NCBI GenBank assembly: GCA_947623745.1
Contig: CANQHN010000024.1
Location: forward strand, 1 to 45,451
Source: an uncultured Oscillospiraceae bacterium
GTDB lineage: Bacteria > Bacillota > Clostridia > Oscillospirales > Oscillospiraceae
DNA: 45,451 nt
Direction of reading: 5' to 3'
Made by a program: the position numbers and the translations under genes. Shown here piece by piece: positions 32,608-35,552 of this stretch. The notes beneath the pieces are model-generated. The model made no database searches and had not been told where the DNA came from. It worked only from the letters and a program-made list of their open reading frames with translations. Position 1 is the stretch's first letter; each line of letters starts with the position of its first letter.

Positions 32608-33471
32608 TTATACGTCCCACCCCACAGTGAGTTCCTCCTGCTCCAACTGACGTTCCAGAGCCTGCTCCACCAAGAGATCCATATTCGCCTCGATATTGGC
32701 GCGGGTCTGGCCACACAGTTTCCGCAGAGTGCGGGCTGTCACCTTCCCCGCTGGGATTTGGGCCGACTCACCCAGCTTACGTAGGTTCACGGCTATTTCA
32801 GAGCGGTTGGAAGGCTGACCGTTCCGCCCCACAAAAATCGGGCCGGACGAAACGCCGCTCCGCCTCGCGTAGTCCAGCAGTTCCTCCCGGCGGCATTTTG
32901 GGATTCGGACCGTCTGCCTCCTGCTTCCAACAATGGAGGTAAGCTTTCCCTCTCGGACTGCCTCTACTGTCAACAGAGGCAGGTCCTGGATGCGCAGGCC
33001 TATGGAGCCGAATACTTTCACTAGCATGTAGATGCGTTCCTGCTCCAGCTGCTTTGCCGTCTGGAGCAGACGCAGGTACTCGTTTCTTGTGAGCTCTGGC
33101 TGGAGTTTATCCCCAATAGGTAATTGATCCACCACCTGGCATTCCCTGTGCCCAACAAAATCCAGAAATTTATTACATGCCGAGAAAATCAAGTTGATGC
33201 CAGATGGAGCAAAGCCATTGTCCAGTAGCTCCTCTCTCCACTGCACCAGGGTCCCTCGCTGAATTTGTTTTTCCGCCGGCAGATCCTGATACATGCGCTC
33301 CAGTGCGGACCGATAGCGCTTCACTGTCATAGCAGTCCAGCCCTTGTTCCTCTCGGCATCCAGAAACCGCTCCACATCATCCAAAGTCATCCGAAATCCG
33401 GTCTCCCGGGGGTAGCTCCAATTTGCGGATGCCGGGGCGTCTTGTTCAGTTTTAACAATTTCAGTCAACAC
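32608..33471 (-). CDS. tyrosine-recombinase-like protein lacking catalytic residues
   Basis: A 287-residue protein, GTG start at 33471 behind AAGGGG. Residues 25-125 form a core-binding (SAM-like) domain (DDVERFLDAERNKGWTAMTVKRYRSAL). A catalytic-domain-like part follows with R160 (GSIGLRIQDL) and PK at 191-192. At the HxxR position it reads R247-TL-R250 (TARTLRKLCGQ), and after LLVEQALERQLEQEEL there is no nucleophilic Tyr; the chain ends GWDV. Strand exchange is therefore unlikely. It sits directly upstream of the polysaccharide locus and just outside the inverted-repeat segment that carries an intact recombinase. A DNA-binding regulatory or accessory recombination role is the best guess. 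Confidence 0.8.
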   Translation of the reverse strand: MLTEIVKTEQDAPASANWSYPRETGFRMTLDDVERFLDAERNKGWTAMTVKRYRSALERMYQDLPAEKQIQRGTLVQWREELLDNGFAPSGINLIFSACNKFLDFVGHRECQVVDQLPIGDKLQPELTRNEYLRLLQTAKQLEQERIYMLVKVFGSIGLRIQDLPLLTVEAVREGKLTSIVGSRRQTVRIPKCRREELLDYARRSGVSSGPIFVGRNGQPSNRSEIAVNLRKLGESAQIPAGKVTARTLRKLCGQTRANIEANMDLLVEQALERQLEQEELTVGWDV

Positions 33472-33542
33472 GGCCCCTTACCCCTTCCTTACTAAAATCC
33501 CAGATGTGCCCTTTTCCATAATTCTTTTTTGCTGGCAGTGTT

Positions 33543-33566
33543 TTTCGTGGGGGTACCCCCACGAAA
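33543..33566. repeat. 24-bp perfect palindrome
   Basis: TTTCGTGGGGGT followed by ACCCCCACGAAA is perfectly self-complementary. It lies in the leader upstream of the recombinase-like gene, directly beside another hairpin at 33567-33587. It could be a dimeric protein binding site or an RNA structure in the leader transcript. Confidence 0.85.
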
Positions 33567-33587
33567 GGGGGAGGCAACGCCTCCCCC
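33567..33587. repeat. GC-rich hairpin, 9-bp stem and 3-base loop
   Basis: GGGGGAGGC, AAC, GCCTCCCCC. On the minus strand the stem is followed by CCCTTTCG, only three T, so it is at best a weak or conditional terminator. Together with the neighbouring palindrome it could form mutually exclusive structures in the leader RNA of the polysaccharide locus. Confidence 0.75.
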
Positions 33588-33671
33588 TAATTTCATTTCA
33601 GGATCAAATGAGCCCTGGAATAAACGTGGGGAGTATGCCTGTCAAGGGGCGCTATTGCCTGACTATCTCAC

Positions 33672-33752
33672 TCACATTACATCCCCACTCGTTCCAATGC
33701 GTTGTATAAAATGTGGCTGTATCTGGTATCCTTGGTACTGCCTAACAGTCAT
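33672..33752 (-). CDS. 26-codon leader ORF just outside the left inverted repeat
   Basis: An ATG at 33752 is preceded by AAGGAG 8 bases upstream. It encodes a 26-residue peptide beginning MTVRQYQGYQIQPHF and ending GDVM. It lies 33 bases downstream (minus strand) of the left 21-bp repeat and upstream of the recombinase-like gene. If the invertible segment flipped, this would be the first ORF of the resulting transcript. No similarity is recognised, and it may be a leader peptide or fortuitous. Confidence 0.4.
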   Translation of the reverse strand: MTVRQYQGYQIQPHFIQRIGTSGDVM

Positions 33753-33784
33753 AGGGCCAGCTCCTTGAATTCTTCGGCCGGTGA

Positions 33785-33805
33785 TTCGCAGAGTTGGCCC
33801 ATCAA
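33785..33805. repeat. left inverted repeat of a putative invertible segment (21 bp)
   Basis: TTCGCAGAGTTGGCCCATCA plus one further A. It is the exact reverse complement of 35271-35291 over all 21 bases; the flanking bases differ at both ends. The two copies bracket 1507 bp holding an intact tyrosine recombinase and an outward promoter. Inverted rather than direct orientation argues for inversion, not excision. Confidence 0.9.
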
Positions 33806-33901
33806 CGTATTTTGCTGGAAATGCCCCTTGCCCCGCCTGGCGTTTGCCTTGCAATGACTGGGTTTCTAAACAAAGCAACTGCTGGGCACATCCCAGTTTG
33901 A

Positions 33902-35038
33902 CTAAAAAGTGTGACTGCTAATCCCGAGCCCCATGGCTGCCAGCTTGTCCATGTTTGCCCGTTTCAACTCCATAGAGGAGTGTACATAACGGTCCAGCGT
34001 GACAGAGGTATTGGCGTGGCCGAGGATTTCCGACAGGCTCTTAATTTCAAACCCCGCCTCCACACAGCGGGTGGCAAATGTATGTCGGATCGTGTGAAAG
34101 TGGACCCCCTCCAGGCCGCACTCCTTCGTATACTTCGCCAACCGTATCTGCACCAACCTTGGTTCCATGAACCGCTCTGTACCGGTCAAAAGATATGCGG
34201 CCGGGCGATGAGGATCAAAGCGCCCACACAGTCTGGCTGCATCGTCAGTGAGAGGAATCGTCCGAATCGAGGTGTCGCTTTTGGGCATGCCGATGATGAC
34301 CTTCGTTTTCCCCTCGCCGGTACAGTCCACATCCCGGATCCGCTGCATAGTAGCTGCCACGTGGATCGTCTTATTCCGCAGAGAAACGTTTTCCCATCGC
34401 AAAGCGCAGAGTTCTCCAATCCGCAGTCCTGTCAGCAGGGCCAGCAGGATACCAAATTTACAGGTGTCCGTGTCCTCCTGAAGATAGTCAATCAATCGTT
34501 GCTGTTCTTCTAGGTCGAGGACACGGACATCTTTTTTATGCTCCTTTGGGTATGTGATCTCCACAGCTGGGAAAATTCCGGGATACTGCCCCGCGGTATA
34601 TTTTAGAATCGTGTGCAGCACCACAAGGATATCCCGGACCGTTTTGGCAGAGAGGCCCTCATCCTGCAACTCCTGTGTGAACCGCACCACAAGTTGTGTG
34701 CTGAATCCCTGCGGGAAACACCCACCCAACTTGGGAAGTATGTGCTTTTTCATGATGGAGTCGTACTTAACATAGGTAGATTCTTTCACTTTTCCTCTTT
34801 CTGAGCACAGCCACTCTTCACAGAAAAAAGCAAGCCTGTGACGGTTATTCGTCACAGGCAGGGGCGTATTGTTCAAGATGGCTGCCTTATACTTCGTGAC
34901 CTTTTCTTTAGCCTCCTTGTAAGTTTTGCCGTAGCAAAATCCGTACCTGATCTTACCGGAAAGCTCATAGCCCTTGATATAGCGGGCTTCCCAGCGTCCG
35001 TCCTTGCGCTTAAAGATATTTTCGCCTTTTCTTGCCAT
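33902..35038 (-). CDS. tyrosine recombinase/integrase, catalytically complete
   Basis: A 378-residue protein behind an ideal GGAGG. The N-terminus (GENIFKRKDGRWEARYIKGY) resembles the arm-binding domain of Tn916-type integrases. A core-binding domain spans about 65-165. The catalytic domain has Arg206 (TGLRIGEL), Lys253 (MPKSDTSIRTIPL), His315 and Arg318 (HTIRHTFATRC), His341 (LGHANTS) and the nucleophile Tyr351 (LDRYVH). All six positions are present, so it should cleave and rejoin DNA. It lies within the 21-bp inverted repeats and is transcribed toward the polysaccharide locus. A TATAAT at 35079-35074 with a poor -35 may drive it. It could be the switch recombinase or the remnant of an integrated element. 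Confidence 0.93.
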   Translation of the reverse strand: MARKGENIFKRKDGRWEARYIKGYELSGKIRYGFCYGKTYKEAKEKVTKYKAAILNNTPLPVTNNRHRLAFFCEEWLCSERGKVKESTYVKYDSIMKKHILPKLGGCFPQGFSTQLVVRFTQELQDEGLSAKTVRDILVVLHTILKYTAGQYPGIFPAVEITYPKEHKKDVRVLDLEEQQRLIDYLQEDTDTCKFGILLALLTGLRIGELCALRWENVSLRNKTIHVAATMQRIRDVDCTGEGKTKVIIGMPKSDTSIRTIPLTDDAARLCGRFDPHRPAAYLLTGTERFMEPRLVQIRLAKYTKECGLEGVHFHTIRHTFATRCVEAGFEIKSLSEILGHANTSVTLDRYVHSSMELKRANMDKLAAMGLGISSHTF

Positions 35039-35210
35039 AGTTAGATTCCTCCAATATAGGTCGTGCCAGCTTAATTATAGCGGGTTCATTCAATCCGATG
35101 ACGATGCATTTGACTGCGATAATTCTTATGGTGCAGCAGATTTTGAGTGAAATGGAGTTTAGAAGTCCCAGACATAGATTCTTCCAGTGGTAAATCCCAT
35201 AAAATACCTG

Positions 35211-35239
35211 TTGCAACAAATGGTTTTATGTTGTATAAT
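35211..35239 (+). promoter_or_regulatory. outward-facing sigma-A-type promoter inside the invertible segment
   Basis: TTGCAA at 35211-35216, a 17-base spacer and a perfect TATAAT at 35234-35239 on the plus strand. Transcription would start near 35246, cross the right repeat and meet the terminator at 35375. No plus-strand gene lies in that interval. After inversion the same promoter would fire on the minus strand into the leader ORF, the recombinase-like gene and the polysaccharide genes. Confidence 0.75.
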
Positions 35240-35270
35240 TGGACTAAATTTAGGCTGTTGTATATACTCA

Positions 35271-35291
35271 TTGATGGGCCAACTCTGCGAA
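35271..35291. repeat. right inverted repeat of the putative invertible segment (21 bp)
   Basis: Exact reverse complement of 33785-33805 (core TTGATGGGCCAACTCTGCGA plus A). It begins 31 bases after the -10 element of the outward promoter. Confidence 0.9.
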
Positions 35292-35374
35292 AAATTTTGC
35301 TTGATTGATTTAATGTGAACAGGAACAAGAATTTAAAATGTTAGGGCTTGGAACTTAAAAGCTTCAACTTCAGA

Positions 35375-35409
35375 AGTGTGGGGAAGTATTGTACTTCCCC
35401 ACACTTTTT
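35375..35409 (+). terminator. strong rho-independent terminator facing the invertible segment
   Basis: A perfect 14-bp stem (35375-35388 with 35392-35405; AGTGTGGGGAAGTA and its complement), TTG loop, then four further T at 35406-35409. On the plus strand it would stop transcripts from the outward promoter after about 160 nt. On the minus strand no T-run follows, so it is not clearly the terminator of the gene ending at 35553. Outside of it, 35292-35552 holds no gene. Confidence 0.85.
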
Positions 35410-35552
35410 ATGCGAATGCCAGCGCCTTTGGATACAGAAAATGGGCTCAGGTCAAAGCTTACATTCGGACATTGATGACGTTAAAATCCTTGCATATACT
35501 ACAGTTCTTGCCCATATCGGCGATGCCGTTCCTGCATCTGGACAACAGAGGT

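Follow-up and report, generated by a model that had tools for sequence, protein, structure and literature searches.

A cassette of about 1.5 kb in the genome of an uncultured Oscillospiraceae bacterium (assembly GCA_947623745.1, contig CANQHN010000024.1; the 45,451 nucleotides analysed are called the window) is very probably a self-contained invertible promoter that was sequenced in its OFF orientation. The cassette carries a tyrosine integrase gene and an outward-facing promoter between two inverted recombination sites, next to a polysaccharide locus. The initial annotation had proposed such a promoter switch with its recombinase inside, and the proposal is supported by the paired inverted sites, the likeness of the spacers within each element, the presence of the promoter at one end only, and the occurrence of both orientations. 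The architecture of the cassette, its conservation, and the opposite orientations among homologous loci were read directly from the sequences.

The cassette and its second copy

A perfect 21-nt inverted repeat bounds the cassette on either side, at 33785-33805 (plus strand) and at 35271-35291 (minus strand); the pair encloses 1507 bp, with 1465 nt between the repeats, as had been described earlier. Each repeat overlaps a core site made of an outer arm, a 7-bp spacer, and an inner arm, namely TCGCAGAG-TTGGCCC-ATCAACGT at 33786-33808 and, on the minus strand, TCGCAGAG-TTGGCCC-ATCAATGA at 35268-35290. Between the sites lies the gene of a 378-aa tyrosine integrase (33902-35038, minus strand), whose product matches PF00589 (E = 2.9e-26) and has the complete catalytic set ascribed to it by the initial annotation (R206, K253, H315, R318, H341, and Y351); all six residues were conserved in 120 of 120 homologues, query included (120 of the 7472 matches were listed). 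An ORF scan of the segment found the integrase to be its sole long ORF, save one antisense to it. The outward promoter (TTGCAA-17-TATAAT, 35211-35239, plus strand) turned out to lie where it had been placed, between the integrase start and the right repeat, 31 nt from the latter, and it faces right, OFF as sequenced. By sequence, the inverted recombination sites bracket a promoter, as in invertons, and a recombinase gene, as in Hin-type systems; the integrase is of the PF00589 tyrosine type and not a serine recombinase of the Hin type.

Beyond the right repeat, where the outward promoter points in the sequenced orientation, is a strong terminator-like hairpin (35374-35406, plus strand) with a T tail (-26.5 kcal/mol, z -6.1), which was also recovered in a separate hairpin scan. 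The automated terminator scan of the window had no entry for this hairpin and listed a weak 5-bp terminator 3' of the integrase. Inversion would aim the promoter at the gene starting at 33471 and at the polysaccharide locus, in line with the initial annotation; a further target proposed at 33752 seems by eye to be a 26-codon ORF only, and the first long gene reached by the flipped promoter is that at 32608-33471.

With up to three mismatches allowed, the 21-nt repeat occurred four times in the genome (3.05 Mb in 76 contigs, with the window's own contig labelled C24, G000:C24), that is, as the pair in the window and as a second pair on contig C49 (C49:6395-6415/7879-7899), where the same repeats surround an integrase 89% identical to that of the window. 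The C49 flank, with leader hairpins and a recombinase-like gene, was homologous to the left flank of the window right up to the repeat, and relative to this homologous flank the segment between the repeats is reversed in C49. The C49 promoter (TTGAAA-17-TATAAT) faces a second capsule operon, in which the recombinase-like gene is followed by genes for Wzz, sortase, LytR, CpsB, and AAA_31 proteins. Judged from their layout, one assembly would hold the window copy in the OFF and the C49 copy in the ON state.

The comparison of the two copies bears on the possibility, in our estimate very improbable, that the cassette is a relic, a former switch now locked in its own genome. The degenerate inner arms of the window copy would fit such a relic, but the copy retains a full catalytic set and perfect repeats, the two copies lie in opposite orientations, and the integrase looks to be under selection, since dN between the copies is 0.055 and dS 0.67 (dN/dS about 0.08).

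The window and C49 switches have common arms and a common spacer (TTGGCCC), so that the two capsule loci could conceivably recombine with each other. Contig C26 ends 54 nt beyond a further core site (L126), and a secreted-protein-like ORF of 962 codons or more starts about 120 nt from this site and reads away from it. The genome thus has five putative switches, on C24, C49, C11, C64, and C26, at two capsule loci, two large secreted-protein ORFs, and one AraC-type regulator; a common spacer was found only in C24 and C49.

Paired sites, promoters, and orientations among relatives

Of 64 genomes of the genus, 4 had a related integrase (E <= 1e-100), as did 13 of 400 genomes of the family (E <= 1e-120), the own genome included in both counts, and a species-level collection had 32 integrase loci, 22 of them in metagenome-assembled genomes named Lapin. 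We examined 43 loci, the window included and three partial integrases (L056, L058, and L060) excluded. In this search of relatives for the repeat pair, which the initial annotation had suggested, a plain integrase without repeats was not the rule, since paired sites were found in 35 of the 43 loci. The eight loci without a pair (L016, L042, L047, L052, L053, L054, L055, and L100) were left out of the paired set; four had a one-sided site and four had none, two of the latter being cut by a contig end.

The core site consisted of 8-bp arms near TCGCAGAG and CTCTGCGA around a 7-bp spacer (TCGCAGAG-N7-CTCTGCGA). The pairs lay near the integrase in 32 loci, and the partner site was more distant in three (L043, L059, and L101). 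Within an element the spacers were identical in 30 of the 32 pairs, those of L031 and L038 being one base off; the mean spacer identity was 0.99 within and 0.50 between elements, with 26 distinct spacers. Since these 32 pairs had been picked partly by the sameness of their two sites, and so are not an independent control, the test was rerun with sites chosen by their arms alone. A site was then found on both sides within 700 nt in 32 loci, and the spacers were identical in 29 of them and one base off in the other three. The identity of the outer arms was 0.97 within and 0.89 between elements, and that of the inner arms 0.84 and 0.68, respectively. From the known mechanism, spacers that are alike within an element and vary freely between elements would be needed for inversion by a tyrosine recombinase and would not be expected after integration into varied targets.

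The strict core pattern (TCGCAGAG-N7-CTCTGCG) occurred in 7 of the 400 family genomes, 6 of which were among the 13 integrase carriers (P = 2e-9, taking both 400-genome samples as one set, judged by matching tallies and genome labels). Chance repeats were rejected on the repeat occurrences in the own genome, the spacer statistics, and these tallies.

Some loci had other arrangements. A strict core site was present in one family genome that had no integrase match at E <= 1e-120 (L105/L112, G356:C4:5910). In L043 the core site (spacer TTGCGCA) occurred three times around the integrase, at -333, +995, and +8997, so that the locus could perhaps invert segments of two different lengths, the longer reaching about 10 kb. 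Extra tandem core sites were found at one or both cassette ends in L033, L035, L036, L037, and L046. The partial integrase matches L056, L058 (in the named strain Merdimmobilis hominis An559), and L060 were accompanied by core-like sites and are possibly decayed cassettes.

We scored the promoter pattern TTGNNN-17-TANNNT at 15-50 nt inside the site. An outward promoter was found at the integrase-5' end of 30 of the 35 elements and at the other end of none (shuffles: mean 0.96, maximum 5), and its distance to the site was 24-31 nt in 25 of those 30. Among 22 away-reading neighbours subjected to a domain scan, 15 were polysaccharide, export, signal-peptidase, or surface-protein genes (with Bac_transf, UDPG dehydrogenase, ABC-2, S26 peptidase, SpaA, Cna_B, FctA, DUF11, DUF7601, List_Bact repeat, and SLH domains); the rest were five other genes (resolvase, TetR, AraC, Rrf2, and helicase) and two without a match. 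Target ORFs of the capsule and giant-protein loci began anywhere from an overlap with the site to 513 nt away.

Both orientations occurred next to homologous genes outside the own genome as well. Next to the OFF cassettes of L029, L032, L039, and L091 are giant proteins that share 46-50% identity with the one in L038, where the cassette is ON; the cassette is also ON in L033, a more distant giant-protein relative. The automatic orientation call for L029, L032, and L091 was 'both-away' because a shorter ORF on the other side reads away too. The idea that L038 and L039 are orthologous on both flanks was rejected, since Pfam identified a histidine kinase on the far side of the former and a ribonucleotide reductase on that of the latter, so that only the target side counts. 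By hand we assigned an orientation to 23 of the 35 loci, 16 OFF and 7 ON, one of them with a non-target flank that was too short. Left out of this set were loci with no away-reading neighbour (L035, L037, and L051), loci with such neighbours on both sides (L031, L043, L096, and L098), and five automatically called loci whose neighbours were short or unexamined (L036, L045, L046, L049, and L093).

With the hand assignment, terminators were found in 13 of 22 non-target flanks versus 2 of 23 target flanks (P = 4e-4); with the automatic assignment of 20 loci, the figures were 11 of 18 and 5 of 20 (P = 0.047). The excess of terminators on the non-target side is moderate support for an invertible promoter. 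A terminator 3' of the integrase was also considered as a general insulator and was rejected, as it was present in 1 of 23 loci.

The same data speak to another explanation, namely, that the segment does invert without its promoter controlling the neighbouring operon, the product being an untranslated or antisense RNA, or the integrase itself being what inversion chiefly regulates. Transcription from the switch could end at the leader hairpins before it reaches the first gene, and the away-reading neighbour was a non-surface gene in 5 of the 22 cases scanned; on the other hand, target ORFs start within the short distances given above, a consensus scan of the minus strand at 33300-33785 found no promoter-like match, and terminators are commoner on the other flank. 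We regard this explanation as having a very small probability.

Several observations weigh against an invertible promoter. As far as the sequences go, both orientations come from homologous loci and not from one locus within one strain. The opposite flanks in the ON/OFF comparisons are non-homologous (for the window and C49, tblastx at 1e-5 gave no match between them), so that independent insertion either way round could formally account for the two orientations. The distribution of the integrase is patchy (4 of 64 genus genomes), the two spacers of L038, the clearest ON homologue, differ by one base, and the inner arms of the two core sites in the window are degenerate. Eight hand-assigned loci had the automatic call 'both-away', the terminator contrast is weaker under the automatic than under the hand assignment, and, with a terminator 3' of the integrase being so rare, the OFF state may leak. 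One further observation speaks for an invertible promoter: 6 of the 35 elements had a contig end no more than 100 nt from a site, versus 0.41 expected, as might result from an assembler meeting mixed orientations, although this excess is confounded in three of the six (L035, L037, and L046) by extra tandem sites.

The patchy distribution and the non-homologous far flanks of the compared loci would also fit a small mobile element, composed of an integrase and terminal inverted repeats, that excises and integrates near surface operons in either orientation without acting as a switch. Its multiple copies per genome, the Tn1549 integrase as the source of the closest solved structures, and arm-like repeats at both ends, which resemble those of integrative elements, agree with this as well. 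Such an element is nevertheless improbable. The outer arms, which lie beyond the spacer, are the best-conserved part of the site (0.89 between elements), the spacers within a locus match as inverted repeats, which would favour inversion, the promoter of 30 of the 35 elements points outward at one end, and the window and C49 copies, oriented oppositely, join a homologous flank at the same junction. No excisionase or transfer genes, as expected of a Tn916/Tn1549-type element, were found in the cassette, whose only long ORF besides the antisense one is the integrase. A search of viral contigs, which covered close relatives, gave no tblastn-confirmed relative, and the best identity was 44.5% to phage records and 39.1% to plasmid records, among the 8 matches listed for each. 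A phage origin of the cassette was rejected on this result for close relatives in the viral contigs. A single strict core site did occur in the viral contigs, and the 4.5 kb searched there had no integrase match at E 1e-3.

Arm-like repeats and a proposed mechanism

The closest solved structures to the integrase fold are those of the Tn1549 Int, and the modelled protein has on this fold an N-terminal beta-beta-beta-alpha domain that resembles an arm-binding domain, as in the Tn916/Tn1549 integrases. Tn916-type Int binds arm-type repeats. Of 32 elements, 23 had the motif GCAGTCA in the region 5' of the integrase and 20 had it in the region 3' of it (shuffle maxima 14 and 13, respectively). Tandem GCAGTCAAA-like repeats were present 5' of the integrase gene in 23 of 31 elements, mostly 12 nt apart, and 3' of it in 19 of 31, mostly 13 nt apart; all were on the integrase strand, with 0 of 31 on the opposite strand at the same threshold and 0.5 and 0.2 by shuffle, the motif having been derived from the very sequences counted, so that the count is not an independent control. 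One of the 32 elements (L097, a truncated integrase match) was excluded from this count, and 28 of the 31 entered the overlap test, in which the second arm repeat was located at the would-be -35 region of a putative integrase-directed promoter in 13 of 28, versus 2.9 by shuffle (maximum 7). By their sequence and spacing, the tandem repeats look like arm-type sites. Their overlap with the putative integrase promoter is no more than suggestive, and autoregulation is a candidate consequence.

In the window, the arm-like repeats on the 5' side of the integrase (35095-35119, minus strand) include a weak second repeat, and the pair is under the threshold used; those on the 3' side (TAGCAGTCACACTTTTTAGTCAAACTG) are at 33894-33920 (minus strand). 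A candidate integrase promoter (35074-35102, minus strand) matches the consensus at 8 of 12 positions, and its -35 region overlaps an arm-like repeat. The arm-like repeats together with the fold suggest a domesticated Tn916/Tn1549-type integrase.

On the strength of these features, the invertible promoter would work as follows. The integrase would bind the two inverted core sites and probably also the arm-like repeats beside its own gene, and strand exchange within the common 7-bp spacer would flip the 1.5-kb cassette. In the ON orientation the outward promoter would read into the capsule operon, and in the OFF orientation, the one sequenced, into the terminator-like hairpin. A promoter of its own, which the integrase seems to have, should keep it expressible in both states, and the overlap of this promoter with an arm-like repeat could make it autoregulated. 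The cassette would in this way catalyse its inversion, drive transcription, and bring about phase variation of the capsule.

A wider proposal seems to us somewhat less probable than even and is put forward tentatively, namely, that these are widespread self-flipping switches derived from a Tn916-type integrase that uses arm sites. Several such switches could occur per genome, with recombinases of common arm specificity and the 7-bp spacer as an address that keeps inversions private, while arm repeats over the integrase promoter would tie switching to autoregulation and could enforce inversion instead of deletion.

Target genes, known systems, and implications

The polysaccharide locus downstream of the switch (3241-32288, minus strand) has genes for glycosyltransferases, GMD, ManC, NeuB, DegT, an ABC-2 transporter, LicD, and Polysacc_synt proteins, as found by a domain scan that covered part of its ORFs. 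Sugar-nucleotide, glycosyltransferase, and export genes are thus all present downstream of the switch, as in capsule or exopolysaccharide loci. Two adjacent hairpins (33544-33588, minus strand) occupy the leader that separates the switch from the first target gene, and the second copy has them too. They are strong both in the window and in L005 (6140-6215) and possibly form a transcription attenuator; an Rfam scan found no known RNA family at the leader and gave one sub-threshold match, at 35321-35416.

The first target gene (32608-33471, minus strand) encodes a tyrosine-recombinase-like protein without the nucleophilic tyrosine. This protein was rejected as the inverting enzyme, since a tyrosine was present in the nucleophile column in 0 of the 120 homologues listed (of 775). 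In the same 120 homologues, any tyrosine was found within the last 30 residues in 4 and within the last 45 in 104, as a rule in the latter case within an LRxLY motif. An H..R string occurred in the last 70 residues of 8 of the 120, upstream of the LRxLY motif in the six displayed. In a MAFFT set of 30 from whole genomes, the window included, five distant members retain H, R, and H, with a tyrosine one or two columns off. In the model of the 32608-33471 protein, the C-terminus is a single long helix. Several of the homologues P0122-P0241 precede polysaccharide- or secreted-protein-like genes, judging from their translations. These nucleophile-less proteins are perhaps regulators of the surface operons that they head.

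Upstream of relatives of this gene in L062, L067, L069, and L075 is a segment of 262 or 417 bp between inverted repeats of 13-19 nt. In L075 a promoter-like match points away from the gene, and in the other three it points toward it. The segments are probably invertons of the ordinary sort and are about as long as the group-139 examples in PMC11892184. That source links the Clostridia inverton group 139 to an 'invertase group 35' annotated as a tyrosine recombinase (PMC11892184). Group 139 resembles our cassette in being clostridial invertons with a tyrosine-recombinase-annotated gene nearby; the two examples given with coordinates span about 255 bp, versus 1.5 kb for the cassette, and would be closer to the short segments just described than to the cassette.

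The cassette resembles Salmonella Hin in having the recombinase gene within the invertible segment, and the Hin segment holds an outward promoter too. Recombinases occasionally lie inside the invertible segment, Hin being the example named (PMC5903667), and Hin is a serine recombinase under the control of a Fis-bound enhancer (PMC3798978). In place of a serine recombinase and a Fis enhancer, the cassette has a tyrosine integrase, core sites, and arm-like repeats. In Bacteroides and Akkermansia, invertible elements or promoters are found ahead of capsule loci (PMC13114119, PMC13343947), and Mpi, a serine recombinase, acts on scattered regions (PMC5903667). The cassette is like these invertons in its position before a capsule locus and differs from them in having the recombinase inside the 1.5-kb segment.

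RecV of Clostridioides difficile and FimB, FimE, and IpuB of Escherichia coli also flip promoter segments, a likeness to the cassette; they are encoded outside the segment and are not known to have an arm-binding domain. The flipping of promoter segments by these recombinases is described in PMC5903667 and PMC6458436. The Tn916/Tn1549 integrases are similar in fold, N-terminal domain, and tandem repeats near both ends, whereas the cassette has the integrase only, conserved outer arms, and spacers that are alike as inverted repeats, a geometry of inversion rather than of excision. The Rin shufflon of Bifidobacterium prophages has a predicted tyrosine invertase (PMC6109161); Rin flanks the variable genes and is without an arm-type domain, whereas the cassette has the integrase inside the segment and carries arm-like repeats. 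A survey of the literature by titles and abstract openings found no promoter switch of this kind with a tyrosine recombinase inside, which is not proof of absence.

The cassette would thus work like Hin, with its recombinase inside, and do so with a tyrosine integrase and arm-like repeats. How the armless Rin favours inversion over deletion is left open in PMC6109161, and an apparent invertase family that seemingly retains arm repeats bears on that question. Paired TCGCAGAG-N7-CTCTGCGA-like sites beside this integrase may serve as a marker that predicts phase-variable surface loci from assemblies. In gut Clostridia, most of them uncultured, this compact module, which packs promoter, recombinase, and sites into about 1.5 kb, would allow capsules and giant surface proteins to be switched.
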